In this document: piece by piece, positions 2,897 to 30,512 of the stretch | Layout of the letters: every line of letters begins with the position of its first letter | How positions within the stretch are numbered: the first letter of the stretch is position 1 | Source: a virus | IMG/VR virus record: IMGVR_UViG_3300009152_003448 | Span: 1-47,267 of that record | Length of the DNA stretch: 47,267 nt | Direction: 5' to 3' (one strand) | Position numbers and translations under genes: made by a program | The notes under the pieces: generated by a model | Told to the model about the DNA's origin: nothing | Databases searched by the model: none | Seen by the model: the letters and a program-made list of their open reading frames with translations, nothing else

Positions 2897-2907
2897 TTTT
2901 TTATCTT

Positions 2908-4640: not shown

Positions 4641-4641
4641 T

Positions 4642-6134: not shown

Positions 6135-6139
6135 AACAT

Positions 6140-6167
6140 TTGATAAATCCAATAGATTCAATATAAA
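6140..6167 (+). promoter_or_regulatory. internal sigma70-type promoter (leaderless)
   Basis: TTGATA (6140-6145), a 16-nt spacer and TATAAA (6162-6167), with the ATG of the methyltransferase at 6174, six nucleotides downstream. It could re-initiate transcription inside the glycan island. Confidence 0.55.
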
Positions 6168-6173
6168 GTATAT

Positions 6174-6947: not shown

Positions 6948-6952
6948 TTCAT

Positions 6953-9269: not shown

Positions 9270-9274
9270 AATTT

Positions 9275-9862: not shown

Positions 9863-9872
9863 AAAATTAATT

Positions 9873-13431: not shown

Positions 13432-13437
13432 CTATAT

Positions 13438-14831: not shown

Positions 14832-15265
14832 AAATTATTTCTCATAGGGGAAATTTAAATGGTAGAAATATATCTACAGAAAACTCCATCCCAGCAATCA
14901 ACGTAGCTTTGTACCATGGACTTGATGTAGAAATAGACGTTTGGTATAAAAACAATAATTGGTATCTCGGACATGATAAACCGCAGTATCTTGTAAATGT
15001 ATCTTTTTTAGAGAATAAAAAATTATGGTGTCATGCGAAAAATTTAGATGCATTAAATTTAATGATAAAAAATAAAAAAATACATTCTTTTTGGCATCAA
15101 AATGACGACTTTACTTTAACTTCAAAAAATTATATATGGACATATCCAAATAAAGATACAGGAAGTAATTCTATTATTGTATTAAAAAATTCGAAAGATA
15201 AAATACCTAAAAAATGTTTTGGAATATGCACGGACTTTGCATTATCATATATCAATGAGCACTAA
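14828..15265 (+). CDS. short GDPD-like phosphodiesterase
   Basis: A 145-aa protein with the opening of glycerophosphodiester phosphodiesterases: ISHRGNL (H6, R7), STENSIPAINVAL (E18, N19), GLDVEIDVWYKNN (E35, D37) and YLGHDKPQYL (H49, D50). These are the metal and general acid-base residues of the TIM-barrel GDPD family. It is much shorter than a full GDPD (about 240 residues), covering roughly the first half of a barrel plus a small tail; similar short versions occur in other loci of this type (my recollection). It may be a compact variant or may not hydrolyse glycerophosphodiesters at all. Its stop lies 11 nt inside the gmd gene. Confidence 0.68.
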   Translation: MKIISHRGNLNGRNISTENSIPAINVALYHGLDVEIDVWYKNNNWYLGHDKPQYLVNVSFLENKKLWCHAKNLDALNLMIKNKKIHSFWHQNDDFTLTSKNYIWTYPNKDTGSNSIIVLKNSKDKIPKKCFGICTDFALSYINEH

Positions 15266-16400: not shown

Positions 16401-16713
16401 ACTTTGCCAATTAATAGTTAAAAAGTACGTCAAAGGAAATGTAAATTGGCCAAGAGAAATCAAGATTGCTCAAAGACTTATTAAGAAATTTAAATCTTTT
16501 GAGTTTTGGGATAATCTTAAAGAGCTAGGTAGTCCTCCACCATCGTTAGCTTGGTTCTTGAAAGCGGAAGGAAAGGCTTTCCTATTAAGAGAATACGAGA
16601 GTTTTAACATAAATCTAAATATACCTAAAATAGAATTAAAAGAAAATAAAGTAGAACATGATAAAAAGATTTGCAAAAAGCCAAAAACACTGCTAGACTT
16701 TATAAGGAAATAA
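16381..16713 (+). CDS. hypothetical protein, small basic
   Basis: A Lys-rich protein of about 110 residues that I do not recognise. The first 75 residues look helical and contain NWPREIKIAQRLIKKF and PSLAWFLKAEGKAFLLREYE; the C-terminal third is charged (KVEHDKKICKKPKTLLDFIRK pattern, split here by position). No ATG lies in the frame; TTG at 16381 (or ATA at 16378) is the best start and overlaps gmd by 20 nt, so the true N-terminus is uncertain. It precedes a glycosyltransferase and the RecA gene. A nucleic-acid-binding role is possible but not shown. Confidence 0.55.
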   Translation: MKISNHKLCQLIVKKYVKGNVNWPREIKIAQRLIKKFKSFEFWDNLKELGSPPPSLAWFLKAEGKAFLLREYESFNINLNIPKIELKENKVEHDKKICKKPKTLLDFIRK

Positions 16714-16714
16714 A

Positions 16715-17422
16715 ATGAAACATATAGCTCTTACTTCTGCAATCAATTATAATGATTATTTAAAAATTTTTAAAAAACATAATTATTATTTTTTTGATGA
16801 AATACATGTGGCCACAGATACAAGAAATGATAAAGAACTAGAGTCTATATGTAGTGATTCAAAATTTAAATTAATTAAAACTGATAAATTTTATACTTAT
16901 CAAAATAAACCAGCTAAATTCAATAGAGGTGCAGCTTACACATATGCTATGTCAAAAATGGAAAATCCAGAATTAATAACCATAATAGACGCAGATACAA
17001 TACTGCCAGACGATTATTTAAATATATTTAATGAATTAAAAAATAGCGGACCATTCGATCAAATGATAAGTGCTAGGAGATTCGTATTAGAAGATTATCA
17101 GGACTACGAAAAAGTCTTTATAAATAAAGATTCAAATTACAAACCAGAAATAAAAAGTCTTGATTGGGGATGGGGATATTTACAAATTTTTCACGCTAAA
17201 AGCAAATGGCTAAAACAAGGCTTGCAATATCCAGAAAATTATGATTGTGGAACTTCAGATTTTTTCTTTAGGAGACAATTTGGATGGCATATTTTTAGAA
17301 ACGATACAGAGGAGCATTATTGGGACCCCTCAGCACAAGTATGCTTGAGAAACTATACAGTTTATGGTTTAGGTCCAAATAATATAAACGCAGAAGGTAG
17401 ACGAGCTAAAGAGTTTATTTAA
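16715..17422 (+). CDS. GT-A-type glycosyltransferase
   Basis: A 235-aa protein with a GT-A core: FFDEIHVATDTRNDKELESI in the N-terminal part, then LITIIDADTILPDDYLNIF (residues 87-105), with a clear D92-A-D94 metal site. The C-terminal half has SLDWGWGYLQIFHAKSKWL and DCGTSDFFFRRQF, an acceptor-side acidic motif of GT2/GT7C type. It is the last gene of the island and lies directly before RecA. The ATG is preceded by AAGGA at a 6-nt spacing, a weak ribosome site. A surface-glycan role is likely by position; DNA-base glycosylation cannot be excluded. Confidence 0.68.
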   Translation: MKHIALTSAINYNDYLKIFKKHNYYFFDEIHVATDTRNDKELESICSDSKFKLIKTDKFYTYQNKPAKFNRGAAYTYAMSKMENPELITIIDADTILPDDYLNIFNELKNSGPFDQMISARRFVLEDYQDYEKVFINKDSNYKPEIKSLDWGWGYLQIFHAKSKWLKQGLQYPENYDCGTSDFFFRRQFGWHIFRNDTEEHYWDPSAQVCLRNYTVYGLGPNNINAEGRRAKEFI

Positions 17423-17458: not shown

Positions 17459-18601
17459 ATGGCAAAAAAATCTAAAGAAGAAATCATCGAATCATCTGGC
17501 CCAAGCGCATCAGATAGACTACTTTCATTTTTAAAGGAAAACAAAGAAGATCATTATAATTTTGAAGATGAAGTATATTACAAGGTGTCAACTGGTAGTT
17601 TAAACCTGGATATCGCTACAGGCGGTGGTTTATGTCCAGGTTTGCATAGATTTATTGGGATGAATGAAGGAGGAAAAACGTCAGAAGCACTCGAAGTAAC
17701 AAATAACTTTCTTAAAACAGTAGATAATTCTAGAGCTTTACTTTTTAAAGCAGAAGGAAGATTGAGCAAGGAAATTAAAGATCGTTCTGGCATTAAGTTC
17801 GTTACCGATGCCAAAGAATGGGTCGATGGAACATGCTTTGTATTTGAATGTAATATTTTTGAAACAGTTTCCGAATTGATGAAAGATCTTATTCAATCAA
17901 ATGATGAAAATAAAAGATATATCTTTATTCTTGATTCAGTTGACGGATTGATGACAAAAGGCGATTCTCAAAAGAGCATGACCGAAGCAACAAAGGTTGC
18001 TGGCGGAGCAGTTATCTCTTCGATGTTAATGAAGAGAATTTCTCTTGCACTTTCCAAGCGTGGTCATATGGCGATCTTTATTAGTCAAGTTCGATCTGAT
18101 ATTAAGCTTGATCCTTATGCAGCAAACAAGGATATTCGTCAAACTACCGCAACTGGTGGAAATGCATTACTGCATTTCGCTAATTGGATTCTTGAATTTG
18201 AACCAAAGTTTAACAAGGATCTTATTCTTGAAAAACCAAATGAAAAATACGATCAAGTTAAGAACAAGATTATTGGACACAATGTTAAGATTGTGATTAA
18301 AAAATCTACAAATGAATCTACAAACTCTAAGATTCAATATCCAATTAAATATGGTCGCAAAGACGGCTCTTCAGTTTGGAGAGAATACGAGATCATTGAT
18401 CAAATCTTATCTTGGGAATTTGCAACAGCAAAAGGAGCATGGGTTACTTTTTCTGACGAAATCATTGATGAACTTAAAAAAGTAAATCTAGAGCTTAAGA
18501 AACAACACCAAGGAATAGACAATCTAAGATCTTATCTAGAAGAAAATAAACCAATCGTAGACTATTTCTATAATAAATTCATTAATACTCTTGCATCATG
18601 A
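17459..18601 (+). CDS. RecA/UvsX-like recombinase
   Basis: A 380-aa strand-exchange ATPase that would form filaments on single-stranded DNA for recombination-dependent replication and repair. The Walker A is GMNEGGKTS (residues 67-75; E. coli has GPESSGKTT), Walker B is RYIFILDSVDGL with D159, the ATP/DNA-contact strand is MAIFISQVRSDI, and DNA loop L2 is TTATGGNALLHFAN (229-242). The N-terminal ~40 residues and the C-terminal region from ~300 are divergent from bacterial RecA, which is usual for phage proteins. It has its own leaderless promoter and ends ATGA-overlapping a nuclease gene. Confidence 0.9.
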   Translation: MAKKSKEEIIESSGPSASDRLLSFLKENKEDHYNFEDEVYYKVSTGSLNLDIATGGGLCPGLHRFIGMNEGGKTSEALEVTNNFLKTVDNSRALLFKAEGRLSKEIKDRSGIKFVTDAKEWVDGTCFVFECNIFETVSELMKDLIQSNDENKRYIFILDSVDGLMTKGDSQKSMTEATKVAGGAVISSMLMKRISLALSKRGHMAIFISQVRSDIKLDPYAANKDIRQTTATGGNALLHFANWILEFEPKFNKDLILEKPNEKYDQVKNKIIGHNVKIVIKKSTNESTNSKIQYPIKYGRKDGSSVWREYEIIDQILSWEFATAKGAWVTFSDEIIDELKKVNLELKKQHQGIDNLRSYLEENKPIVDYFYNKFINTLAS

Positions 18602-19017
18602 GATTATTGAATATTAACGGCAAGCTCGTTAATAAGAATGTAACAAATTACGAAATAGATTGGGATGCAAAATCTAGAAGCAAATTGCAATTTAAATTCA
18701 AGCAATTTTTCTATCCTTATTGGAAAAATCATATCGTTTATGAAGAGTTTCCAGTTTATGGAAGCATGCTTAAAGTAGATTTATTAAATGCAACAAAAAA
18801 GATAGCAGTTGAAATACAAGGCGATCAACATGAGAGCTTTAATAAGTTCTTTCACGACAATTCTAGATTAAAATATCTTCAAAGTATAAAAAGAGACGTT
18901 AAAAAAGAAAAATGGTTAGAAATGAATGGATTTAAGTTTCTAGAACTCTACGAAAATGATTTAAAAAATTTATCACCACAATATATAGAAGAAAAGTGCG
19001 GAATATTAATTATTTAA
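18598..19017 (+). CDS. VSR/DUF559-like PD-(D/E)XK endonuclease
   Basis: A 139-aa protein with the core of very-short-patch-repair-type endonucleases. VDLLNATKKIAVEIQGDQHE (residues 60-79) gives D61 and the E72-x-Q74 metal site (the Q replaces the usual K, as in many VSR-like proteins). DVKKEKWLEMNGFKFLELYE (100-119) is the helix-strand region following the site in this fold. It is ATGA-coupled to the RecA gene, so a role in recombination, nicking or junction processing is plausible. The specificity is not deducible. Confidence 0.7.
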   Translation: MRLLNINGKLVNKNVTNYEIDWDAKSRSKLQFKFKQFFYPYWKNHIVYEEFPVYGSMLKVDLLNATKKIAVEIQGDQHESFNKFFHDNSRLKYLQSIKRDVKKEKWLEMNGFKFLELYENDLKNLSPQYIEEKCGILII

Positions 19018-19032
19018 GTGTAAAATTTTGTG

Positions 19033-19293
19033 GTGACAAATAAGAAAAAATTCAATTTTCCAGCATCTCTTTTAAAACAAATTGATGAATGTAGTTTCGG
19101 CGGATATATACTTTTTAATTTTTCAAGTAAAGGTGAACCCCAAGTATATACAAAATTTGATAATCAAATAAACGCTATGGCTCTTTTATATTATTTAAAT
19201 ACATGGGGACAAAGCATAGATCAACTTAATTTAGAGGCAACTACGGATTTAATAGCTAGAAAAAACGAAAACGAAGATTCAGAAGAAGATTAA
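19033..19293 (+). CDS. hypothetical protein, acidic C-terminus
   Basis: An 86-aa protein not recognised. It has one globular-looking segment (FGGYILFNFSSKGEPQVYTK, then INAMALLYYLNTWG) and an acidic tail ending ENEDSEED. GTG codons occur at 19030 and 19033; a TAAAAT box ends at 19026, six nucleotides before 19033, so I choose the second GTG as a leaderless start. It lies between nuclease and helicase genes. An acidic tail on a small phage protein could serve protein-protein contact, but that is speculation. Confidence 0.55.
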   Translation: MTNKKKFNFPASLLKQIDECSFGGYILFNFSSKGEPQVYTKFDNQINAMALLYYLNTWGQSIDQLNLEATTDLIARKNENEDSEED

Positions 19294-19334: not shown

Positions 19335-20819
19335 ATGATTTATTCTTTACAAGTAGAAAGACACGTATTAAGCGGTCTATTAAAGCATCAAGATTTATTT
19401 GCAGATGTTGATGTATTTTTAACAGAGAATGACTTCTATAATGATGTTCATTGTACTATTTATTCTATATTCAAGAACATTAAACATAAAGGTGAAAACG
19501 TAGATAAAGTACTATTAGCGGAAAAAATTAAGAATCTTGGAATCTCATTTAAAGACGAGATTAATATCTTTGATTACATTGATAATTTAAGCTTCTCACA
19601 AATAACTCAAGAAGCCACAATGGAAGCATGCAAAGAACTTATTAAACTACGAGTCAGAAGAGAGATTTCTTCAACAGCAGATAAACTTAAAGAATATGTC
19701 ACAAAAAACTCGGATGAATCTCTTGATTCTATTATTACTAAAATAGATCAGATTTATAATAAAAAAATTTCATCTTATTCAGAAAATGATATGCCAATTA
19801 ATATTTTTGAAGGGGTCGAAGATCTTATCGAAGAAATTGGTAATAGCCCCAAAGAAGATACTGGATTAATAACTCCATATTCTGAATTTAACAGAATGTA
19901 TGGTGGTTTAAAAAATGGTAATATCTATGCCATCGCTAGTAGACCTGGAGGCGGTAAATCGACTTGGGTCAATGACATCTGTTTCAAAACCTCTATTAAT
20001 CCCAAGAATAAAACTAAAACTCTTATTCTTGATACTGAAATGCAAACTGTAGATATTCAATTAAGAATGGTTGCATCTTTGAGTGGTGTTCCAGTTTGGT
20101 ATCTTGAAACTGGTAATTGGCGCAAAAATGAAGAAATGACAAAGAAAGTAAGAGAAGCTTGGGATAAAGTTAAAAAATACGAATACTTTCATTATCATGT
20201 AGGAAATAAAAATATTGACCAAGTATGTTCCATAATTCGCAGATGGTATCTTTCTAAAGTCGGAAGAGGAAATCAAGCTATGATTGCTTATGATTATATT
20301 AAACTAACTGGAGAAAAAGTAGGTCAAAATTGGGCAGAGCATCAAGCAATTGGAGATAAGATTGATAAACTAAAAAGAATCTCAGAAGAAATTCATTGTC
20401 CAATTATTACAGCTATGCAATTAAATAGAACTGGCGAAAGTTTTAATAGAAAAGGTTCAGAAGTCGTGGATGATAGTTCTGTAATTTCACTTTCAGATCG
20501 ATTACAATGGTTTGCATCATTCGTAGCAATCTTTAGAAGAAAAACTTTAGATGAGATTACTCTCGATGGTCAAGCCTTTGGAACTCACAAGCTAATCCCT
20601 ACTAAAACTAGATTCCAAGGAAAAGATGCAGCTGGTCATCAAGATTTAGTTAGAAGGCTAGATTGTACTGGCAAAGAAATCTGGTCACAAAACTATTTAA
20701 ACTATAATGTTCAAAACTTCAATATCGAAGAAAGAGGATCACTCGCAGATGTAGCAGAGCATCAAAGAGAACAATACGAACTCAACGATGCAAATGCAAA
20801 TGATGGAGAACTATTATGA
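19335..20819 (+). CDS. dnaB: DnaB-like replicative helicase
   Basis: A 494-aa hexameric 5'-3' helicase. The N-terminal domain begins with the family pattern VERHVLSGLLKHQDLFADVD. The RecA-like core has the linker YGGLKNGNIYAIASRPGGGK (Walker A at about residues 202-210), then KTLILDTEMQTVDIQLRMV, Walker B-type MIAYDYIKLTGE (Tyr replaces the usual V/I-D context: A-Y-D-Y), and HCPIITAMQLNRTGE, the arginine/DNA-loop region. Its near-leaderless promoter lies immediately upstream. It is the head of an overlapping run with thyX, primase and nuclease genes, which would be co-expressed as the replication module. Confidence 0.93.
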   Translation: MIYSLQVERHVLSGLLKHQDLFADVDVFLTENDFYNDVHCTIYSIFKNIKHKGENVDKVLLAEKIKNLGISFKDEINIFDYIDNLSFSQITQEATMEACKELIKLRVRREISSTADKLKEYVTKNSDESLDSIITKIDQIYNKKISSYSENDMPINIFEGVEDLIEEIGNSPKEDTGLITPYSEFNRMYGGLKNGNIYAIASRPGGGKSTWVNDICFKTSINPKNKTKTLILDTEMQTVDIQLRMVASLSGVPVWYLETGNWRKNEEMTKKVREAWDKVKKYEYFHYHVGNKNIDQVCSIIRRWYLSKVGRGNQAMIAYDYIKLTGEKVGQNWAEHQAIGDKIDKLKRISEEIHCPIITAMQLNRTGESFNRKGSEVVDDSSVISLSDRLQWFASFVAIFRRKTLDEITLDGQAFGTHKLIPTKTRFQGKDAAGHQDLVRRLDCTGKEIWSQNYLNYNVQNFNIEERGSLADVAEHQREQYELNDANANDGELL

Positions 20820-21472
20820 ATGTAGATTTAGTATCAATTACAAAACCAGAAATTAAAGGAATTAAAAATCCAGAAGACTTGGTGGCATTTTGCGCTAGAG
20901 TTAGTAATCCATCTAATCAGATGAATATCGAAACTGCTCCAAAGCTATTAAAATTTTTAATTAAACACAAGCATTGGAGTCCATTTGAGCTTGTTGATAT
21001 GTGTGTTGAAATTAAAACTAGTAGAGGAATTGCGGCTCAAATTCTTAGGCATAGATCATTTAGTTTTCAAGAATTTAGTCAAAGATATAGTGTTGCAAAT
21101 GAGTTTGAAGATATCGAACTCAGATTGCAAGGAGATAAGAATAGACAAGTAGGCGAAATTCTTATGAAAACAAATACCGATGCATACGATAAAGTTAATG
21201 AAGTTCTAATAGAGTCTCTATCGCTTTCTCAACATTGTTATGATACAATGATTGAAAATGGGATTGCGAAAGAAGTAGCAAGAATGATATTACCTTTAAC
21301 AACTCAAACTACAATGTATATGAAGGGTTCATTAAGAAGTTGGATTCATTATATCGAGTTAAGAACCAAGCAAAATACTCAAAAAGAACATAGATTAATT
21401 GCGGAAAAATGTAAAAAGATTTTCATTAAAGAATTTCCTACAATAAGTGAGGCTTTAGAATGGAAGAGTTAA
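20816..21472 (+). CDS. thyX: flavin-dependent thymidylate synthase ThyX
   Basis: A 218-aa enzyme making dTMP from dUMP with FAD, NADPH and methylenetetrahydrofolate. The ThyX signature R-H-R-x7-S is present as RHRSFSFQEFSQR (residues 78-90). The N-terminal SNPSNQMNIETAPKLLKFLI and HWSPFELVDMCVEI precede it, and KGSLRSWIHYIELR supplies the second substrate-binding region. Length is normal. The ATG overlaps the helicase stop, and the primase ATG lies 13 nt before its end. It secures thymidine supply for an AT-rich genome. Confidence 0.96.
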   Translation: MNVDLVSITKPEIKGIKNPEDLVAFCARVSNPSNQMNIETAPKLLKFLIKHKHWSPFELVDMCVEIKTSRGIAAQILRHRSFSFQEFSQRYSVANEFEDIELRLQGDKNRQVGEILMKTNTDAYDKVNEVLIESLSLSQHCYDTMIENGIAKEVARMILPLTTQTTMYMKGSLRSWIHYIELRTKQNTQKEHRLIAEKCKKIFIKEFPTISEALEWKS

Positions 21473-22365
21473 ATGTATATCAAATCTTAACAGATCTTGG
21501 TTACCAATTAAAAGATTGCGGGAAAGAGTTTAGAGCTAAACCTTTATATAGGGATAGCGACAATGACTCTGTATTAAGAATCTATAAAGATACTGGTAAA
21601 TGGGTAGATTTCAAACAGAACATGAGTGGAGATATAAATTCATTAGTTAAATTAACACTTAAATTAGAAAACCCAAACGAAGCCCAAGAATGGCTTAAAA
21701 ATAAAAACTTTGCATTTAAAAACCCAACAGAACCACAAAAACCATTGATAAAATCTTCTAAAAAATTTGACATAGAAATTCTTTCTAGATTAGAAGACGA
21801 TCAAAGTTATTGGGTAAAAAGAGGGGTTGATACTGAAATCTTAAAAATTTTTAAAGGTGGAGTTGCAAAAATGGGAAAGATGAAAAACAGATATGTATTT
21901 CCTATTTTTAACGCTAAGAATAATATTATAGGATTTTCTGGAAGAGACGTTACCAATTTATCTAAGATAAAGTGGAAACATATTGGTGAAAAAACAGAGT
22001 TTGTTTATCCATTATTTATTAATTCACAAATCATACAACAGCAAAAAGAAATAATCTTGGTCGAAAGTATTGGAGATATGTTGAGTTTATGGCAAGCTGG
22101 AGTTCAGAACGTTCTTGTTACATTTGGAACTAGTTTAAGTTTAGCGATTTTAAATTACTGTTTAAAACTTGATCCAAAAAAGATTTATATCAGTTTAAAT
22201 AATGATTCCAATAAAAATAATGCTGGAAATATTGCAGCAGAAAAAACTCAAAGCAGATTAAGTAGATACTTTGATAAAAGTCAACTAAAAATAGCTCTAC
22301 CACCTAAAAAAGATTTTGGCGAAATGACAAAAGAAGAAATAGTTCAATGGAAAAACAATCTTTAA
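21460..22365 (+). CDS. DnaG-type Toprim primase, zinc-site-free
   Basis: A 301-aa primase-like protein. The N-terminal ~65 residues resemble the CHC2 zinc-binding region in order (CGKEFRAKPLYRDSDNDSVL, then WVDFKQNMSGDINSLV) but lack the Cys/His ligands, so no zinc is expected. A core strand YVFPIFNAKNNIIGFSGRDV (residues 145-164) follows. The Toprim metal site is EIILVESIGDMLSLWQAG, with E202 and D206, and the second acidic cluster is ISLNNDSNKNNAG near D249, where Asn replaces one usual Asp. It would prime Okazaki fragments for the DnaB-like helicase encoded just upstream. Comparable zinc-less primases occur in phages. Confidence 0.82.
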   Translation: MEELNVYQILTDLGYQLKDCGKEFRAKPLYRDSDNDSVLRIYKDTGKWVDFKQNMSGDINSLVKLTLKLENPNEAQEWLKNKNFAFKNPTEPQKPLIKSSKKFDIEILSRLEDDQSYWVKRGVDTEILKIFKGGVAKMGKMKNRYVFPIFNAKNNIIGFSGRDVTNLSKIKWKHIGEKTEFVYPLFINSQIIQQQKEIILVESIGDMLSLWQAGVQNVLVTFGTSLSLAILNYCLKLDPKKIYISLNNDSNKNNAGNIAAEKTQSRLSRYFDKSQLKIALPPKKDFGEMTKEEIVQWKNNL

Positions 22366-23312
22366 AAGTATTATCAGCTTCTAGAATTAAAACTCTTGAG
22401 ACTTGTTCTTGGGTATACTGGAATAACTATCATACTAAAGTTCCTCAAAGTCAAAATGATGGAGCATTAAGAGGAACAATTTGTCATACAATTTTTGAAT
22501 TGCTTTTAAATAAAAGACATCTTAAAAATTATAAAAGAATAATAAAAAAGAATGCTATCGATGGAGATGAAGGAGTAAATAGACTAGTTAAAAAATTATC
22601 CGTGAAAGTCAAACTAGACGAAAGTAATTATAAACTATTAAATGATATGATTTTAGTTGGTCTTAAAAACGACTTCTTTGGAGAAGGTGGAAAAATAGTT
22701 AAGCCAGAGTATGATTTTAATATTCAAAACGATGAACCAAAATATCATATTCGTGGTTTTATAGACAAGCCTATTAAAATCAAAAAAGAAATGCATATAA
22801 TCGACTATAAAAGCTCCAAATACAAGTTTAGGGGTGACGACCTTGAAGCTAATATTCAAGCTATGATGTATAGTCTAGCGAGTAAAAAATTATGGCCAAA
22901 ATTAAAACCAATAGTAAAGTTCTTGTTTCTTAGGTTTCCTAAACAGCCAATTCAAGAGTTAGTATTTGATGATAATCAAATTAAGGGGTTCGAGCATTAT
23001 CTTGAGCATATTAATCATTATGTTAATAAGTTTGACGAAGAATCCGCTAGATCAAACTTTGCAATAGATAGTGTTAAGAATAAATGGATGTGTCAAGTTG
23101 GTGGATGGAAATGCCCCTATAAAGATCCATATAAATATTATGTAAAAGTAAATGATAAAGGCGAAGTTATAGAAACTAGTCTAGAAGATAATTTTAAAGA
23201 TATAGAAGGATTTAAAGTAGAAACTCGAACATATGAAGGATGTCCAAAATTTCAAACTAGTTCTGATAAAAATGAGTTTCTTGATGACTCAAAAGACGAA
23301 TTTTTAGATTGA
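22347..23312 (+). CDS. Cas4/AddB-like PD-(D/E)XK nuclease with Fe-S cluster site
   Basis: A 321-aa RecB-family nuclease. Motifs: SASRIKTLETCSWVYWNN (first Cys, C20), GTICHTIFELL (H47), IRGFIDKPI (D140), MHIIDYKSSKYK (D153-Y-K155 of the catalytic D-x-K) and EANIQAMMYSLA. Three Cys follow at C249, C256 and C299 (MCQVGGWKC ... EGCPKF); with C20 they make the four ligands of the 4Fe-4S 'iron staple' of AddB/Cas4 proteins. It probably acts in phage recombination or DNA end processing. No other CRISPR protein or array is nearby, so it is not CRISPR-linked. The ATG overlaps the primase gene by 19 nt. Confidence 0.85.
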   Translation: MEKQSLKVLSASRIKTLETCSWVYWNNYHTKVPQSQNDGALRGTICHTIFELLLNKRHLKNYKRIIKKNAIDGDEGVNRLVKKLSVKVKLDESNYKLLNDMILVGLKNDFFGEGGKIVKPEYDFNIQNDEPKYHIRGFIDKPIKIKKEMHIIDYKSSKYKFRGDDLEANIQAMMYSLASKKLWPKLKPIVKFLFLRFPKQPIQELVFDDNQIKGFEHYLEHINHYVNKFDEESARSNFAIDSVKNKWMCQVGGWKCPYKDPYKYYVKVNDKGEVIETSLEDNFKDIEGFKVETRTYEGCPKFQTSSDKNEFLDDSKDEFLD

Positions 23313-23337
23313 TATTTTTATAAACTTCTGTTATATT
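23309..23337 (+). promoter_or_regulatory. sigma70-type promoter of polymerase III operon (leaderless)
   Basis: TTGATA (23309-23314), a 17-nt spacer and TATATT (23332-23337). The ATG at 23345 is seven nucleotides beyond the -10 box. This placement also argues for starting the gene at 23345 rather than at the TTG inside the -10 box. Confidence 0.68.
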
Positions 23338-23344
23338 GGTAAAA

Positions 23345-24091
23345 ATGATACCTTTATTTAAATCTCATTATTCTTTAGGAAGATCTATTCTTACCCTAGA
23401 GGATAAGTCTGAAAGAGATGAATATCCAGACTCTATTATTCAAATAGCTAAACAAAATAAATTAAAAGAGATATTTCTAGTAGAGGATAACATGTCTTCA
23501 TTTCTTGAAGCTTATACAAATTGCAAGAACAATAATATTAAATTGAATTATGGATTAAGAATTTCAGTTACAGAGTCGATTGTTGATAAAACTGAAGAAT
23601 CAAGAGTTAAAAACTCAAAACTTATACTTTTCTTTAAAAATAAAAAAGGCTATGAATCTTTAACTAAACTATTTAGTATTGGCGCAAAAGATGGTTTTTA
23701 TTATGAACCTAGATTAGATTATACAACAATAGAGAACAACTGGTCAGATGATCTAATTATGGGTATTCCATTTTATGATTCTTTTATATTTAATAATACT
23801 TTAAAAAATAGCATATGCGTTCCTCAAATAGATTTTACTAAACCAGTGGTATTCATTGAACAGAACGAACTACCTTTTGATTTTCTTATTAAAGATAAAA
23901 TGCTATCATTTGCAGAAAAGAATAAACTAGAAATTTTTAATGCAAAAAGCATTTATTATACTGATAGAAAAGACTTTAAAACATATTTAACCTTTAGATG
24001 TATCAATAAAAGAACTGTTCTGAATAAACCAGATCTTGAGCATATGAGTAGTAATGAATTTTGTTTTGAAAGCTGGAAAAATAAAAAATGA
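23345..24091 (+). CDS. DNA polymerase III alpha, N-terminal PHP domain (split DnaE, part 1)
   Basis: A 248-aa stand-alone version of the PHP domain that normally begins DnaE. The opening IPLFKSHYSLGRSIL matches the DnaE H-S-x-Y-S start, and NNIKLNYGLRISVTE matches the 'I-K-P-I-I-G-x-E' strand. LILFFKNKKGYESLTKL is the L-L-A-x-N-x-x-G-Y-x-N-L motif, and SIYYTDRKDFKTYLTFRCIN is the final 'x-H-Y-L-x-x-x-D-x-x-x-x-x-x-L-x-C-I' segment. The first His of the HxH metal motif is replaced (K-S-H), so PHP phosphatase/exonuclease activity is probably lost. It ends exactly where a normal DnaE passes into its polymerase domain; the polymerase half is encoded at 25438. The two would need to associate as proteins. 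Confidence 0.85.
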   Translation: MIPLFKSHYSLGRSILTLEDKSERDEYPDSIIQIAKQNKLKEIFLVEDNMSSFLEAYTNCKNNNIKLNYGLRISVTESIVDKTEESRVKNSKLILFFKNKKGYESLTKLFSIGAKDGFYYEPRLDYTTIENNWSDDLIMGIPFYDSFIFNNTLKNSICVPQIDFTKPVVFIEQNELPFDFLIKDKMLSFAEKNKLEIFNAKSIYYTDRKDFKTYLTFRCINKRTVLNKPDLEHMSSNEFCFESWKNKK

Positions 24092-24585
24092 AAACATTAG
24101 AAATACCTAAAAAAACTAATTCCTATGGTTCGAAGTGTCGTCAAATAGAGGGTAACGAAGAAAGAACTAGAGACTACAAAGATATGCTTTATTCATATCA
24201 AAAACTTTGGGCGCAGGATGCAGATTTAATAAATTTTCATTACTTAGGTTCAGAAAGAATCCTCGATTCAATTTTAGAATTAACTAGAATAGATAGCGAA
24301 ACGATACCAAAGGATTTATATTTTGATAAAATATTACATAGATTCAAAGAAAGAGATGCTCAAAGAGCTAATATCGTAGACATAGGTAATAAGCTTAACA
24401 CAACTGTTTACATTGTTGCTTTCTTAAAAAATTTACAAAAATATAAAATATATAATCTTACAAAAGATGATGGAATTTGGATAGAGATGAATCAAGCAGA
24501 ACACATAGCATGGCATCATAAAATGAGAGATTATGATTTTGATGAATTTTTAGATTTTAAACCTTACTATCCAAAATATATTTAA
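24088..24585 (+). CDS. hypothetical protein between split polymerase genes
   Basis: A 165-aa protein not recognised. It is mostly helical by composition, with segments YKDMLYSYQKLWAQDADLIN, RFKERDAQRANIVDIGNKLN and a C-terminal aromatic/His region (AEHIAWHHKMRDYDFDEFL). There are no membrane spans and no obvious catalytic motif. The ATG overlaps the PHP stop (ATGA) and its stop is one base before the exonuclease ATG, so it is made together with polymerase III parts. A structural role bridging the PHP and polymerase halves is attractive, but only by position. Confidence 0.6.
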   Translation: MKTLEIPKKTNSYGSKCRQIEGNEERTRDYKDMLYSYQKLWAQDADLINFHYLGSERILDSILELTRIDSETIPKDLYFDKILHRFKERDAQRANIVDIGNKLNTTVYIVAFLKNLQKYKIYNLTKDDGIWIEMNQAEHIAWHHKMRDYDFDEFLDFKPYYPKYI

Positions 24586-24586
24586 T

Positions 24587-25225
24587 ATGGACGAACATCT
24601 ATTAAGATACGATAAGAAAAAAACTTTAGTCTTTATTGACTGTGAGACATTTAACCTTTGTCTTAATTTCTGTCATAATATTCCATGGCAAATAGCTATG
24701 CTAAAAGTCCAAGGAGATAAAAAAATAGATCAAAAAAATTTCTATTTAAAATGGCAAACAGACTTAAAAATCAGTCAAGACGCAGCTAGAATAACAAGAT
24801 ATGATCATAAGAAAGTTCAAAAAGAGGGACACGATCCAAAAGAAGTATTTGCAACTATTAAAGATTGGCTAGATAATGCAGATTATATTATTGGCCATAA
24901 TACCCTTGGATTTGATATTTATCTTATAAAAGAGTATTATAAATATATGGGTTGTAATTGGAGTCATCTTGTAAATAAATTTATTGATACAAATGCAATA
25001 GCAAGAGGTATAAAATATGATATGCCTTACAATTCAAAAGATAACTTAACTGAATATCAATATAAAATTCTTCATACTAGAAAAAAGAACGTCAAGAGCT
25101 CTTTGACTTTCCTAGGAAAAGAAAATGGAATAGAGCATGATTACGAAAAACTTCATGATGCTATTAATGATCTTGATTTGAATTTAAAAGTATGGAATAA
25201 ATTGAAATGGCAATTAGAGGTATAA
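24587..25225 (+). CDS. DnaQ-like DEDDh 3'-5' exonuclease
   Basis: A 212-aa proofreading-type exonuclease. ExoI is LVFIDCETFN with D18 and E20, ExoII is YIIGHNTLGFDIYLI with D110, and ExoIII is HDAINDLDLNLKVW with H190 and D195 (H-x4-D), so all DEDDh residues are present. It resembles the epsilon subunit of polymerase III and lies between the PHP and polymerase genes, supporting a proofreading job and compensating for a PHP domain without a full metal site. It is longer at the C-terminal side than the bare exonuclease domain (an insert FIDTNAIARGIKYDMPYNSK between ExoII and ExoIII). Confidence 0.88.
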   Translation: MDEHLLRYDKKKTLVFIDCETFNLCLNFCHNIPWQIAMLKVQGDKKIDQKNFYLKWQTDLKISQDAARITRYDHKKVQKEGHDPKEVFATIKDWLDNADYIIGHNTLGFDIYLIKEYYKYMGCNWSHLVNKFIDTNAIARGIKYDMPYNSKDNLTEYQYKILHTRKKNVKSSLTFLGKENGIEHDYEKLHDAINDLDLNLKVWNKLKWQLEV

Positions 25226-25226
25226 C

Positions 25227-25445
25227 ATGGCATCACTAGACGACATTTATGACATAATTCAAAAATTAGAAGATGGCGGAATAGAGTATTTACTTATTAC
25301 TGTGCAAAAAGGTAAGAAACAAGGTAAAGCAGACGTATTCTTTAGTTTAAAGGATAAAGCATCTATGAAAATATTAGCAACTGGATTAGATGCCTTTAAT
25401 AAAGAAATAGATAACATTGATAAAGAAGATCAAGACGATGAATAA
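25227..25445 (+). CDS. hypothetical protein, small acidic
   Basis: A 72-aa protein not recognised: IYDIIQKLEDGGIEYLLITV, then KADVFFSLKDKASMKILATG, ending in an acidic IDKEDQDDE tail. Probably one small alpha/beta domain. It sits between the exonuclease and the polymerase gene, whose ATG (25438) lies within its last codons, so the three are coupled. It could be a small accessory subunit in the manner of theta, but no sequence similarity supports this. Confidence 0.6.
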   Translation: MASLDDIYDIIQKLEDGGIEYLLITVQKGKKQGKADVFFSLKDKASMKILATGLDAFNKEIDNIDKEDQDDE

Positions 25446-28020
25446 TATCCTAAAAGACGAAGCTTTATATAGTAAATTTACTACTACTGATCTTGGATTA
25501 CATGGAGTAAGACTTCCAGAATTTAATATTGATGCATCCTTAAAAAGACATCTTAATATTAGCGAAGATGTTTCTAATTATGATTTTCTCAGAGCATTAG
25601 CCTTAAATGGTTTTAAGGACTTAAAAATAGAAAAAAACAATAAAGATTATAACAAATATATTGATAGAGCAAAACATGAACTAGAAACATTAAAAGAATT
25701 AGGATTTACGGATTATATTTTACTAGTATGGGATGTTATTAATTTTTGTAAGACAAGTAACATACCAGTTGGATTAGGTAGAGGTTCAGCAGCTGGCTCA
25801 CTTATTCTTTATCTAATCGGCGTAACTAGAATTGATCCAGTTAAATATGACCTTTATTTCGAAAGATTTATATCCAAGATTCGAGCTAAAAAGCAGGTTA
25901 TTGATGGAATAACATATCTTGACGGTAGTTTAATGTGTGACGTTGATTTGGATATTTGTTATTATAATCGTCAAAAAGTATTACAATATTTAGAATCTAA
26001 ATTTAAAGGTAAAACTAGTAAAATCTTAACTCTTAATACTTTGAGTGGAAAACTCTTAATCAAGGAATGTGGCAAAATCGTTGGAGAAAAGACAGAAGAA
26101 GAAATGACAAATATTTCATCGTTGATTCCGAAAGTTTATGGTCAAGTTAAAGATATTAATACTGCATATGAAGAAGTAGAAAAATTTAAAGATTGGTGTG
26201 ATGAAAATAAAGAAACATTTCAAATCGCCTTAAAGCTAAGAGATCTTATCAAAAATAAAGGAGTTCACCCGTCTGGAGTTCTTCTTTCTTACTATGATTT
26301 AGAAACAGTATGCCCAACAGAATTCTCTTCTGATAAAGAGCCAGTTTCAAGTTTTGATATGAATTGGGTTAGTCTATTTAATATTAAACTTGATATCTTG
26401 GGCTTAAGAAGCGTTTCAGTTGTAGATGATGTTTGTAAAAATATTGGTATTAAAGTCGAAGACATTGACTTGAATCATGAATCTATTTATAGAAATCTAC
26501 AAGACCTAAAATCTCCTCATGGACTCTTTCAAATCGAAGCAGAAACTAACTTTAGAGTTTGTCAAAAAGTAAAACCAAAGAATCTAGAAGAACTTAGTGG
26601 GGTATTAGCTCTAGCAAGACCTGGAGCATTACAATTCGTAGATAAGTACGCTGCCCATACAAATTATCAACAATCAGAAAGTATTCATCCATTCTTTGAT
26701 GATATTCTAAAACAAACTGGCGGAGTAGCATTGTATCAAGAGCAATTGATGAAGATGGCTAATAAGATTGGATTCACTTTGGATGAAGCAGAAATCTTAA
26801 GAAGAATAGTTGGTAAAAAGAAAACCGAAGAAATTAAAGCTTGGAAAAAGAAGATTGAATCAAAGATTAAAGAGAATAAAATACCCAAAGAAGTAGGAGA
26901 GATTCTGTGGAAGATCCTTGAAGATTCAGCAAATTATTCATTTAATAAAAGTCACTCGTTGGCTTATGCAGCTTTAGCAGCAGTTACAATTTATTTGAAA
27001 TTCAATCATCCTCAACAATTCTTTTTATCTTTATTAAAAATGAGCAGAAACGAACCAGATCCAATTGGTGAAATTTCTAAGATTCAAAAAGAAATGCATG
27101 AATTCGATATCAAACTCCTTCCTCCACACATTATCAAATCAGAAATGGATTTTTCAATAGAAGATAAAGATATTAGATTTGGCTTATTATCTATCAAGGG
27201 AATTAGTGATAAATCTATCGAAAAGCTAAACAGCTTCAGAAATAAGTATTCTAATAAGTTTGAAATTTTCCAAGCAGCAGAGGAGGCCGATCTTAATATT
27301 GGAGTATTATCATCCTTGATTCAAGCTGGAGCATTGAGTGGTTTTAATCAATCTAGAAGTAAAATTGTACTAGAAGCTCAATTATGGAATATTTTAACAG
27401 CTAAAGAGAAAAAGTATTCAATTTTATTCGCAGATAAGTTTGATTATGATTTAATTAAAATTATCAAGCATCTCAATAAATTTACTGATGAAAAGAACCA
27501 TTTAGTAATTAAAGATAATAGATTAAATACTATTAAAGCAAAATATGCGCCATATCTTGAAATCTATAATCAGAATAGTAAAAGTGAAAGCTTTGCTAAT
27601 TGGTATTATGAAAAGAAACTGTTGGGATATACATATAACAAAAATTTAAGAGACATCTTCGCAGAAAAAAGAGAAAACCTTAAATATGTTAGTGATATTA
27701 TAGATGAACCAGTTAATAGTAAAGTTGCATTTGTTGGTCAAATAGAAGAAGTATATACTGGCGTATCTAAAAATGAAAAGAAAACTAGATATGTAAGACT
27801 AAAAATATCAGATGAAACCAGCTCAATTAGCGTACTAATATTTAATGATAATATTGAAAATAATAAATTATTAAATAATAAAGCTTTTGAAGAAGGAAAT
27901 ATTGTTATTGCAAAAGGTTCAAAGAGGGACGATTGTATATTTGGAGACTTAATAGCTATTCAAGATCATCAAATTTATATGAAATTAAATGATTTAAAAA
28001 AGACAGATAAAAATAATTGA
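25438..28020 (+). CDS. dnaE: DNA polymerase III alpha, polymerase part (split DnaE, part 2)
   Basis: An 860-aa C-family polymerase catalytic chain without PHP. Residues 1-60 are the usual linker after PHP (VRLPEFN, FLRALALNGFKDL). The palm begins with IPVGLGRGSAAGSLILYLIG (109-128), and the catalytic Asp pair lies in CDVDLDIC (D170, D172; E. coli D401, D403). The fingers contain LARPGALQFV, GGVALYQEQLMKMANKIGFT and SFNKSHSLAYAALA. An OB-like domain (VAFVGQIEEVYTGVS, RYVRLKISDETSSISVLIF) lies near residues 750-830. Upstream in-frame TTG (25417) exists, but the ATG overlapping the previous stop is preferred. The PHP part is encoded 1.3 kb upstream. No clamp or clamp loader is seen here. Confidence 0.93.
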   Translation: MNNILKDEALYSKFTTTDLGLHGVRLPEFNIDASLKRHLNISEDVSNYDFLRALALNGFKDLKIEKNNKDYNKYIDRAKHELETLKELGFTDYILLVWDVINFCKTSNIPVGLGRGSAAGSLILYLIGVTRIDPVKYDLYFERFISKIRAKKQVIDGITYLDGSLMCDVDLDICYYNRQKVLQYLESKFKGKTSKILTLNTLSGKLLIKECGKIVGEKTEEEMTNISSLIPKVYGQVKDINTAYEEVEKFKDWCDENKETFQIALKLRDLIKNKGVHPSGVLLSYYDLETVCPTEFSSDKEPVSSFDMNWVSLFNIKLDILGLRSVSVVDDVCKNIGIKVEDIDLNHESIYRNLQDLKSPHGLFQIEAETNFRVCQKVKPKNLEELSGVLALARPGALQFVDKYAAHTNYQQSESIHPFFDDILKQTGGVALYQEQLMKMANKIGFTLDEAEILRRIVGKKKTEEIKAWKKKIESKIKENKIPKEVGEILWKILEDSANYSFNKSHSLAYAALAAVTIYLKFNHPQQFFLSLLKMSRNEPDPIGEISKIQKEMHEFDIKLLPPHIIKSEMDFSIEDKDIRFGLLSIKGISDKSIEKLNSFRNKYSNKFEIFQAAEEADLNIGVLSSLIQAGALSGFNQSRSKIVLEAQLWNILTAKEKKYSILFADKFDYDLIKIIKHLNKFTDEKNHLVIKDNRLNTIKAKYAPYLEIYNQNSKSESFANWYYEKKLLGYTYNKNLRDIFAEKRENLKYVSDIIDEPVNSKVAFVGQIEEVYTGVSKNEKKTRYVRLKISDETSSISVLIFNDNIENNKLLNNKAFEEGNIVIAKGSKRDDCIFGDLIAIQDHQIYMKLNDLKKTDKNN

Positions 28021-28045
28021 CATTTCTAAATATAGATAGTAATAT
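28017..28045 (+). promoter_or_regulatory. sigma70 consensus promoter of SSB-like gene
   Basis: TTGACA (28017-28022, overlapping the dnaE stop codon), a 17-nt spacer and TAATAT (28040-28045). The ATG is at 28054, eight nucleotides after the -10 box. This is the closest match to the consensus -35 in the window. Confidence 0.75.
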
Positions 28046-28053
28046 TAAGTAAT

Positions 28054-28596
28054 ATGATATCATTCTATAAACCAAACAGTAAGAATACAGGCACAGCTTG
28101 TAGTTTCAGCGTAAACTCAAAAGATAATTCAGTATGGGGATCACTAATAAAGCAGAGTTCTTGGAATGACGCTAAAAAGATCGGCTCTTTCTCTGAAAAT
28201 CAAAATAATCCTAATAAAAGTGTTAAGGTTAAATTTTCACTAACAGAGGCAGCTGGACTACTTGATTCTTTAGAAAGAAATACAGAATTTTCCGCGTATC
28301 ATACTTCAGAGAAACAAATTACAAAAATTAAGCTAGCTCCTTATATTAGGGATGAAAAACAAGTTGGGTTTTCATATAGCGTAAACAAAGAGGACAAGCA
28401 AAATGTTGAAAATAAACAATCATATTTGATTGGTTTTTATTTTAATGAAGCAAGACTATTAAAAGAATTTTTGACTTATTCTTTAAATTCTGTTTTTGAA
28501 GCTCAACGAATCGAAGCTATAAAAAAAGCAAAAAATTCCACAAAAGAAACTAAAGAAGTTGGCGAAGGTAATCAAGAAGATAGCGAACTTTGGTAA
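28054..28596 (+). CDS. putative single-stranded DNA-binding protein
   Basis: A 180-aa protein with a beta-rich N-terminal two thirds (TACSFSVNSKDNSVWGSLIK, KSVKVKFSLTEAAGLLDSLE, QVGFSYSVNKED) and a flexible charged tail ending EGNQEDSELW. An acidic tail ending in an aromatic residue is the SSB hallmark (E. coli ends DDDIPF), used to recruit partners. Its own strong promoter and its place after polymerase, primase and helicase genes fit a highly expressed ssDNA-binding protein. The fold is not a clear OB by eye, and FSLTEAAGLL recalls PC4/Whirly-like phage SSBs. The call is therefore tentative. Confidence 0.45.
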   Translation: MISFYKPNSKNTGTACSFSVNSKDNSVWGSLIKQSSWNDAKKIGSFSENQNNPNKSVKVKFSLTEAAGLLDSLERNTEFSAYHTSEKQITKIKLAPYIRDEKQVGFSYSVNKEDKQNVENKQSYLIGFYFNEARLLKEFLTYSLNSVFEAQRIEAIKKAKNSTKETKEVGEGNQEDSELW

Positions 28597-30512
28597 TGGA
28601 ACGAAAAAAGAAAGTTTTAATACAAACAGATTTCTCTCTAGCCAAAACTGGCTTTGGGAGAAATGCTAAAACCTTACTTAAATATTTATACTCTACAAAT
28701 AAATATGATTTAGTTCATTATTCATGCGGAATGACTTATGATCATCCAGAATTCAAGAAAACTCCTTGGAAAACCGTAGGCTCTTTACCTAATACCCAAC
28801 AAGAACTTGATCAATTAAATAGAGACCCTAATTTAGCTAGAATGGCTAGTTACGGAGCACATCTTTTAGATAAAGTTATTAATGACGAAAAACCAGATGT
28901 TTATATTGGTGTTCAAGACATTTGGGGAGTTGATTTTGCTATAGAAAAGCCTTGGTTTAATAAAATTGCATCAGTAATTTGGACCACTTTAGATTCACTT
29001 CCTATTCTTCAATCTGCTGTGACTAATGCTCCAAAGATTAAAAACTACTGGATTTGGAGTAATTTTGCTACAAAAGCTTTGCATAAACTTGGATATAGCC
29101 ATGTTAAGACCATGCATGGCTCACTCGAAGATCAAGAATTTTATCGTTTATCGGATTTTGACAGAAATCAACTTAGAAAAAAACATAACATTCCACAAGA
29201 TGCATTTGTAATTGGATTTGTTTTTAGAAATCAATTAAGAAAAAGCGTTCCAAATTTATTACAAGGCTACGCTTTATGGAAAAAAAATAATCCAGAAATT
29301 AAGAATACATATCTTCTTTTGCATACTCATTGGGGAGAAGGATGGAATATTCATAAGCTTGCTGGTGAATTTGGAGTAAACCATAACGAAATATTAACCA
29401 CATATGTTTGTAAAAACTGTGGAGAATATGAAATTAAACCATTTACTGGGCCAGATACTAATTGTAAATTTTGTAATGCGCAAAAAAGCCAAACCACAAC
29501 AAATGTATCGCTTGGAGTTACAGAAGATCAATTGAATCAAGTTTATAATTTTATGGATGTTTATTGTCATCCATTTACAAGTGGTGGACAAGAAATTCCA
29601 ATTCAAGAGGCAAAATTAACTGAACTTATTACCCTTGTTACGAATTATAGTTGTGGAGAAGAAATGTGTGAAGTAGAAGCTAATTCTCTCCCATTGGAAT
29701 GGAATGAATATAGAGAGCATGGCACGGAATTTATTAAAGCTTCTACTTATCCAGAATCAATAGCTAAACAATTAAGCATTGTATACAAAATGCCACAACA
29801 CAAAAGACTTGAAATGGGTAAAAAAGCTAGAGAATGGACCATTAAAAATTTCGGCATCCAAAACGTAGGAAAATCTATAGAAGAATTTATAGATAATCAA
29901 CAACTAGCCGATTGGACCAAAGTACTAGAGAACTCTCAAGATAAGAAGGATCCATATTTTCAAATACCCAATATTCTAGATGATGGCGATTGGATATTAT
30001 CAATGTATCATAATATTCTAAAAATGAAGAATATTGACAAAAATGATTCTGGCTATCAATACTGGATGGGCGAATTGGCTAAAGGTGCAAAAAGACAAGA
30101 TCTAGAAAATTATTTCAGAAATGTAGCTTTAAAAGAAAGCGGAGAAGACAAACAAGTAAAATTCGAAGATCATTTAGATAAAAATGATAAAGGCAGAGTA
30201 ATTTATGTTATGCCAGAAAGCGCTGGAGACATCTTCCTTAGTACGTCGTTATTTAAATCTATTAAGAATAGATATCCAGATTATAGTTTATATGTTGCTA
30301 CAAAACCACAGTACAAAGAGATTCTAGAAGGCAATCCATATGTTCATAGATGGATTGAATATAATCCAATCATGGATAATCTAATTTGGTTAGAAGGCAA
30401 TAATCAACATGATGGATATTTTGATATTGCTTATTTGCCATATACTTGCACTCAAAGAAATTTAAATTATCTTCACAATGGTTTAGATAAAGTAGAATTT
30501 CAATTAACTTGA
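28596..30512 (+). CDS. GT4 glycosyltransferase with zinc ribbon, DUF4214-like domain and N-terminal half of GT9
   Basis: A 638-aa multidomain protein. Residues ~5-435 form a GT-B GT4 transferase (KKVLIQTDFSLAKTGFGRNA; FVIGFVFRNQLRKSVPNLL; DVYCHPFTSGGQEIPIQEAK with the catalytic-site Glu), interrupted by a zinc ribbon C272-x2-C275 ... C290-x2-C293. Residues ~465-515 resemble DUF4214 (LSMYHNILKMKNIDKNDSGY then QYWMGELAKGAKRQDL). Residues ~535-638 are the N-terminal half of a GT9 heptosyltransferase-like domain (PESAGDIFLSTSLFKSIKNR, YKEILEGNPYVHRWI). The GT9 C-half is the next gene. The ATG at 28596 overlaps the SSB-like stop by one base; an upstream TTG is less likely. It lies away from the glycan island, inside the replication block. 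Confidence 0.82.
   Translation: MERKKKVLIQTDFSLAKTGFGRNAKTLLKYLYSTNKYDLVHYSCGMTYDHPEFKKTPWKTVGSLPNTQQELDQLNRDPNLARMASYGAHLLDKVINDEKPDVYIGVQDIWGVDFAIEKPWFNKIASVIWTTLDSLPILQSAVTNAPKIKNYWIWSNFATKALHKLGYSHVKTMHGSLEDQEFYRLSDFDRNQLRKKHNIPQDAFVIGFVFRNQLRKSVPNLLQGYALWKKNNPEIKNTYLLLHTHWGEGWNIHKLAGEFGVNHNEILTTYVCKNCGEYEIKPFTGPDTNCKFCNAQKSQTTTNVSLGVTEDQLNQVYNFMDVYCHPFTSGGQEIPIQEAKLTELITLVTNYSCGEEMCEVEANSLPLEWNEYREHGTEFIKASTYPESIAKQLSIVYKMPQHKRLEMGKKAREWTIKNFGIQNVGKSIEEFIDNQQLADWTKVLENSQDKKDPYFQIPNILDDGDWILSMYHNILKMKNIDKNDSGYQYWMGELAKGAKRQDLENYFRNVALKESGEDKQVKFEDHLDKNDKGRVIYVMPESAGDIFLSTSLFKSIKNRYPDYSLYVATKPQYKEILEGNPYVHRWIEYNPIMDNLIWLEGNNQHDGYFDIAYLPYTCTQRNLNYLHNGLDKVEFQLT

Follow-up and report, generated by a model that had tools for sequence, protein, structure and literature searches.

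The window analysed here, 47,267 nt in length, is a metagenomic fragment deposited as IMG/VR record IMGVR_UViG_3300009152_003448. The region 23345–28020 contains five intact ORFs on the + strand in the order PHP, X, EXO, Y and POL, and all of the further genes described below lie on the same strand. PHP (23345–24091; 248 aa from ATG 23345 or 251 aa from TTG 23336) is a PHP domain of the DnaE type that stands alone and has lost its metal site, as indicated by matches to Pfam PHP (3e-14) and to the phrog_405 profile, by its best curated models, which are those of DnaE, and by the loss of the ligand positions across 185 loci. It shares a 4-nt ATGA overlap with X (24088–24585), which encodes a protein of 165 aa. 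EXO (24587–25225) encodes a DEDDh 3'–5' exonuclease of 212 aa that is similar to epsilon/DnaQ (Pfam RNase_T, 1e-12; phrog_192, DNA polymerase exonuclease subunit, 3e-25), and Y (25227–25445) encodes a protein of 72 aa with an acidic tail, the 3' end of the gene overlapping POL. POL (25438–28020; 860 aa from ATG 25438, with TTG 25417 as a possible start) is a DnaE-type polymerase alpha subunit without PHP, consisting of palm/thumb, fingers, HhH and a C-terminal OB fold (Pfam DNA_pol3_alpha, 2e-56; finger, 1e-33; HHH_6, 1e-17; phrog_405, 1e-155; NCBIfam DnaE, 4e-137); no tau-binding CTD was recognized in it.

These genes belong to a replication module, the order of which is kept in relatives from the gene for a RecA/UvsX-like recombinase onwards (17459–18601; TIGR02012, 3e-16). 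The module continues with a DnaB-type replicative helicase (19335–20819; Pfam DnaB_C, 3e-25; phrog_19, 2e-58), ThyX (20816–21472; Pfam Thy1, 1e-47), which lies between helicase and primase in the subclade of the window, a DnaG-type primase (21460–22365; Pfam DNAG_N and Toprim; phrog_47, 3e-31) and RECB, a conserved PD-(D/E)XK nuclease of the Cas4/RecB-like type (22347–23312; Pfam PDDEXK_1, 2e-15), which directly precedes PHP, at a distance of up to 50 nt, in 146 of 165 loci. Downstream of POL, within 50 nt of it in 99 of 113 loci, is a conserved gene (28054–28596) with a weak Pfam Gp10-like match (0.008, below the cut-off), for which putative SSB is at most a working label. A promoter-like site is present just upstream of PHP (23309–23337). 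The scan returned 30 such sites in total, compared with 35.9 ± 6.4 in shuffled sequences, which is not above chance, and the single promoter that had been proposed for the five genes is therefore not upheld.

The proposal that the five proteins form one unit is not supported either, as neither X nor Y is a core component. X, which is found in 26 of the 185 loci and always in the slot between PHP and EXO, is an optional, fast-moving cassette, the divergence of which does not follow that of POL (Spearman 0.12). A structure search with its predicted model (pLDDT 78) gave two significant matches to unnamed viral proteins and many weak ones to PD-(D/E)XK proteins, and a PD-(D/E)XK-like fold is probable for X. 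Y, which is small and lineage-specific, lies between EXO and POL in 80 of the 185 loci and 5 kb downstream of POL in one relative; it has a dN/dS of 0.08, and its AlphaFold model (pLDDT 79) is a helix–strand–strand–helix. Neither protein gave a significant match in fold searches of the PDB or in comparisons with Pfam and PDB sequences.

Position and distribution of the break

Focusing on phrog_405, a profile of one phage family, PHP and POL correspond to its successive parts, at positions 62–290 and 322–1090, respectively. When aligned with E. coli DnaE, PHP extends to about residue 246 and conservation in POL sets in at around residue 273, so that the missing piece is the PHP–palm linker, in agreement with the break point that had originally been predicted. 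The sample consists of 185 distinct phage loci with all three genes, from IMG/VR and MAG contigs and among the matches listed, within which the identity of POL reaches down to 38%. PHP, EXO and POL are separate and in that order in all 185 loci, with none fused, and a further scan found PHP–EXO–POL in 77 of 80 loci among the matches listed, some of which are on contigs of the earlier loci. Wherever a locus extends far enough in the upstream direction, PHP is present, and it invariably precedes EXO–POL. In 54 of the 185 loci the three genes directly adjoin one another, no gap being longer than 50 nt and 4-nt stop–start overlaps being frequent (for example L196 and L348), and in 39% of loci more than 300 nt of other genes separate PHP from EXO. 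The separation is thus a feature of a large group of uncultured bacterial viruses and not a one-off.

Twelve relatives with records of 100–203 kb each contain a single POL and no more than one PHP, which is detected at E 1e-3 in 11 of them and by a custom model in the twelfth (L229); a second, fused polymerase copy was not found in any of the twelve. The search of related phages for fused versions that had been suggested with the original prediction returned none in the clade among the matches listed (the best 80 per list); it consisted of five scans of IMG/VR and one of genomes, which could have missed fused relatives if these form a rare sister group. The literature searched, in which few subscription journals were included, contained no account of such an arrangement.

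The catalytic residues of EXO (D18, E20, D110, H190 and D195) and the catalytic aspartates of POL (D175, D177 and D326, numbered from TTG 25417) are conserved in 185 of 185 loci, and the nuclease between the halves is therefore a complete DEDDh exonuclease, as had been proposed. Essentially all of the metal ligands of PHP are lost across the 185 loci: the columns of the HHDHEH[C/H]DH ligand set are now K, E/D, D, R, K, S/T, Y/F and others, the alignment of the N-terminal HxH being uncertain. Judged from these residues, PHP appears to be catalytically dead. The median dN/dS values of 0.062 for PHP, 0.033 for EXO and 0.036 for POL correspond to purifying selection on all three genes. The window being a metagenomic fragment is the sole point in favour of a sequencing or assembly artefact, or of a decaying pseudogene. 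However, the same separation with intact frames in 185 distinct loci, together with the further loci in the PHP–EXO–POL order, excludes chance, a frameshift and an assembly error, and the low dN/dS values and the invariant catalytic residues of EXO and POL also argue against this explanation, the probability of which we regard as negligible; the earlier judgement that a sequencing error was unlikely is thereby confirmed.

The two halves could in principle be rejoined, either by intron splicing with removal of X–EXO–Y or by a split intein. Split inteins do occur elsewhere in the POL of three relatives (L105, L199 and L231), so that trans-splicing probably exists in the group. However, none of these is at the PHP/POL break, where the median distance is five residues from the conserved core of PHP to its end and eight residues from the start of POL to the core of that protein, leaving the break without intein sequence, as noted originally. 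This differs from the intein-split DnaE of cyanobacteria, in which the intein halves are located at the break. Moreover, no Rfam intron matched within 22300–28700 at E 1, and the gene in between, EXO, is conserved and functional. Rejoining is accordingly highly improbable.

Relationship to DnaE and PolC

In a maximum-likelihood tree, the split polymerases all lie on one side of one branch with a support of 100/100, and the other side contains 21 fused rows of phage and bacterial DnaE; the tree is unrooted and is made up of DnaE-type rows, with no PolC row. The pattern suggests that the alpha subunit was split only once, and long ago, in the ancestor of a large group of uncultured phages. The gene would have been cut once at the PHP–palm linker in this ancestor, with EXO placed between the halves, and X, other cassettes and, in one lineage, Y would have joined after the split.

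From the gene order, it had been suggested that the genes may be a PolC intermediate or a PolC in dispersed form. PolC from Firmicutes also combines PHP, a DEDDh exonuclease and a polymerase in one replicase (a combination inferred here from the genes), and the PHP–EXO–POL order superficially resembles the location of the PolC exonuclease in the PHP region. However, in PolC a single chain carries an N-terminal OB fold and a PHP domain into which the exonuclease is inserted, whereas the phage system has three chains, a continuous PHP ORF with no exonuclease inserted in it, and an OB-fold match at the C-terminus of POL, as in DnaE (residues 756–835, below the curated cut-off). With 459 bits (4e-137), POL matches the DnaE model, whereas PolC models are absent from its matches at E = 1; the matches of EXO are likewise to models of stand-alone DnaQ and not to those of PolC. 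Alternatively, the genes may be a relic of an ancestral multi-chain polymerase older than the fused enzymes, for which the unrooted tree without a PolC row leaves room, and an ancestral-like character has been proposed for a different split Pol III, that of jumbo phages (PMC7824862). Against this, the loss of the PHP ligands is a derived state, and PHP, Pol3 and HhH are fused in both DnaE and PolC, so that their common ancestor was most simply fused. An origin from PolC or as such a relic is very unlikely, and the split forms one branch in the DnaE-type tree. Of the original prediction, the linker split, the intervening DEDDh exonuclease and the missing intein therefore stand, and the PolC intermediate and the five-protein unit are not supported. 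POL has the Pol3 core with the three aspartates of the C family, a C-terminal OB fold and a closer match to DnaE than to PolC models; as PHP, Pol3 and HhH are not on one chain in any of the 185 loci, it is filed as a variant rather than as a plain DnaE-type member.

A proposed three-chain replicase

According to published surveys, the catalytic core of C-family polymerases nearly always shares its chain with PHP. Mutations in PHP destabilize E. coli Pol III, in which PHP still serves a structural purpose, modulating the stability and activity of the enzyme (PMC3666897), and carries the epsilon-binding site (PMC3919608), although its non-enzymatic role is unsettled. The metal sites of PHP are lost where a separate exonuclease proofreads (PMC3666897), and the loss of the ligands beside an intact, separate EXO fits this published rule. 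We therefore consider it likely that the genes encode a three-chain DnaE-type (C-family) replicase derived from the single ancestral split. In this replicase of a large tailed phage, expressed from adjacent genes, POL would carry out synthesis, and the inactivated PHP would dock non-covalently on POL where the covalent PHP sits in other alpha subunits and stabilize it as a scaffold. EXO would proofread, probably held at the PHP–POL surface; the DEDDh residues assign it to the DnaQ/epsilon type, and its binding to alpha and its proofreading are predicted from gene linkage only. The host sliding clamp may be used: neither a bacterial-type nor a PCNA-type clamp was found in the 12 long relatives. 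As the records are fragments, a partner from host or phage could have escaped notice.

PHP may instead have left the polymerase for another job, such as binding a host or phage partner, with POL working without PHP and with EXO alone. Such a change would suit the status of PHP as a chain of its own, its faster evolution compared with POL, its frequent separation from EXO by other genes and the loss of its catalytic site, which means that its role is not enzymatic. However, its constant presence upstream of EXO–POL, the strong purifying selection on it and the near-universal occurrence of PHP in C-family polymerases, where it stabilizes Pol III, make this alternative unlikely. The pairwise identities of PHP, EXO and POL are correlated (Spearman 0.90–0.96); such co-divergence is expected for any linked genes. 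The residue coupling between PHP and POL (mutual information with APC) was not above that of controls such as PHP–DnaB in 118 loci, which correspond to around 42 effective sequences and are too few.

Returning to the three-chain replicase, the similarity to the E. coli Pol III core of DnaE (alpha) and DnaQ (epsilon) extends to the catalytic chain with palm, fingers, HhH and a C-terminal OB fold, the separate DEDDh exonuclease and the degenerate PHP metal site. However, the phage PHP is a separate protein with essentially none of the ligand residues, several of which E. coli PHP keeps, and POL lacks a recognized tau-binding CTD. EXO, the profile of which matched no PDB sequence at 1e-3, stops just past the nuclease core and thus lacks the long C-terminal tail that E. 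coli epsilon uses for PHP, so that docking on PHP, if any, must differ from that of epsilon. In Bacteroidetes DnaE1 an exonuclease is likewise tied to a DnaE polymerase, but is fused N-terminally to PHP in one chain (PMC3919608), whereas the phage EXO is encoded by a separate gene between PHP and POL. It is an evenly balanced possibility that PHP is a dead replisome subunit acting in trans as an adaptor that places the tail-less EXO by the PHP-less alpha, which would be a third proofreading link besides PolC and the Bacteroidetes fusion. PHP has been detached, inactivated and kept under selection throughout a whole virus group and, as it is otherwise found on the polymerase chain, these viruses offer a natural way to ask what PHP does: a reconstituted reaction can be run with PHP, without it or with another PHP in its place, and no folded chain has to be cut.

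The fission is distinct from PolC and from the other phage C-family polymerases that are divided into separate proteins. The split minimal Pol III alpha of jumbo-phage group 2.2 lacks PHP and occurs alongside a family B polymerase; its break falls within the catalytic module, and its genes are far apart (PMC7824862). The present POL, in contrast, is complete and retains HhH and OB, with the cut between PHP and palm and the genes close together. In Cellulophaga phage phi13:1, Bacillus phage KLEB27-3 and Rossellomorea phage phiT1, alpha is also annotated as two genes, but the break is inside the polymerase part, where KLEB27-3 has an HNH gene, and in KLEB27-3 and phiT1 PHP is still fused to the N-terminal half.

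Position of the break in a divided DnaE polymerase

The window carries five intact genes on the plus strand at 23336–28020, and the split architecture of PHP (the detached PHP domain, 23345–24091), EXO (a DEDDh exonuclease, 24587–25225) and POL (the polymerase, 25438–28020) is confirmed and conserved. On the phrog_405 profile of 1190 positions, PHP covers 62–290 and POL covers the consecutive 322–1090; curated models label both chains as DnaE, and POL matches the palm/thumb, fingers and HhH regions, with an OB-fold match at its C-terminal end. In E. coli DnaE numbering, the PHP chain stops near residue 246 and conserved POL sequence restarts at about 273, placing the break at the linker as originally predicted, and neither chain shows an obvious equivalent of the E. 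coli helix at about 255–267. The accompanying suggestion of a PolC-like form fails, as neither POL nor EXO has a PolC model match at an E of 1, the OB fold is C-terminal and PHP is uninterrupted. A short motif at the very C-terminus of POL (27960–28000), KIYMKLS[DE]LK, is conserved group-wide and is possibly a candidate partner-binding site.

IMG/VR scans with POL and one genome-contig scan, annotated with profile HMMs and with duplicates dropped, yielded at least 185 distinct loci with full PHP, EXO and POL among the matches listed, with POL identities as low as 38%. The order PHP–EXO–POL in separate genes was kept in 185/185 loci, and a fused version was found in none. Among the best 80 loci of a scan with EXO, some of which share contigs with loci found before, 77 showed this order and three lacked one gene. 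Twelve relatives of 100–203 kb each carry one POL and no second, fused polymerase copy. The literature searched held no prior description of this architecture, which is a variant of the DnaE replicase that is new as far as that literature extends; a split Pol III of another kind, cut at another position, is known (PMC7824862). Pol III splits at other positions were also seen in cultivated phages.

Predicted roles of the three chains

All five DEDDh residues of EXO and the three aspartates of POL are kept in 185/185 loci. The PHP ligand columns are occupied by K, E/D, D, R, K, S/T and Y/F, and PHP is predicted from these to be catalytically dead throughout the group. Median dN/dS is nevertheless low for PHP, at 0.062, beside 0.033 for EXO and 0.036 for POL. 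Loss of PHP ligands is a known pattern where a separate exonuclease is present, and PHP serves structurally in E. coli Pol III (PMC3666897), where it also bears the epsilon-binding site (PMC3919608). PHP is most simply read as a structural subunit acting in trans, and its assembly with POL is quite likely. The EXO chain ends 17 residues after the last catalytic aspartate and so lacks a tail like that of epsilon. A search of the twelve long relatives for a phage clamp found neither the beta nor the PCNA type, so a host clamp is likely to be used.

The PHP–EXO gap and the small genes X and Y

The original prediction counted the small genes X (24088–24585) and Y (25227–25445) in a five-protein unit, but they are not core. 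X occurs in 26/185 loci, always between PHP and EXO, and its divergence shows no relation to that of POL (Spearman 0.12, versus 0.91 for PHP and POL in the same loci), with a dN/dS of 0.31; Y occurs in 80/185, with its sequence under constraint (median dN/dS 0.080). The model of X (pLDDT 78) gave two significant matches to unnamed viral proteins and many weak PD-(D/E)XK matches, and X is probably a cassette that encodes a nuclease, perhaps a homing one.

In 39% of loci more than 300 nt separate PHP from EXO, compared with 6–10% at other junctions except DnaB–primase, where ThyX sits in many loci. The PHP–EXO slot (24088–24585 in the window) is an insertion hotspot for many unrelated cargo genes, including GMP reductase, cupin, SET, glycosyltransferases and a LAGLIDADG endonuclease. 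Several other proteins encoded there carry motifs that by eye resemble PD-(D/E)XK, without a match in Pfam. PHP, EXO and POL are directly consecutive in 54/185 loci, typically with 4-nt overlaps, and this adjacency is taken as the ancestral state. The widest separation was seen in the related locus L239 (945–8517), with POL about 3.4 kb downstream of PHP and EXO.

Origin of the split and genomic setting

Wherever the gene is intact, the outgroups (DnaE of phages and bacteria) encode a single chain of 1029–1250 amino acids, and no cultivated-phage POL above about 33% identity was found. The bacterial outgroups L288, L294, L295 and L296, from the phages collection, look like bacterial chromosome contigs with a host dnaE. 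One branch of length 1.6 and support 100/100 parts 27/27 split rows from 21/21 fused rows. The tree is unrooted and PolC is not among its rows; origin by fission is favoured over ancestral separation on grounds of parsimony, since both DnaE and PolC are fused enzymes (PMC3919608).

The predicted absence of an intein at the PHP/POL break held, and no Rfam intron was found there. Split inteins lie inside POL in three relatives, L105, L199 and L231, and exemplify how an intein break would appear. In L105 (7490–7920) and L199 (7600–7890), naturally split inteins, with N-parts beginning CLSEDT or CMSLDT and C-parts ending VTSN, divide the conserved motif SFN[KR]|SHS, within a few residues of where the intein sits in cyanobacterial DnaE. 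In L231 (5995–9042 and 4590–5384), POL has a second split-intein site, GRG|S, and the PHP–EXO gap carries the LAGLIDADG gene.

The conserved module runs RecA, two small genes, DnaB, (ThyX), primase, RecB-like nuclease, PHP, EXO and POL. The two small conserved genes between RecA and DnaB (window 18598–19293) keep a constant order across the group, and in L039 (831–2510) ThyX is interrupted by a complete intein that bears an HNH endonuclease domain. Relatives reach 203 kb, and the window, which spans an entire IMG/VR record, is probably a fragment of a genome. Its tail genes are lambda-like (central fibre J and tape measure), and a long run at 1931–17422 comprises genes that, as read from their sequence, resemble glycosyl- and other sugar-modifying transferases. 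A tmRNA gene, unusual for a phage, lies at the start of the window (15–403), with the tag AKTAKYKGHISARASLVELTASVA.
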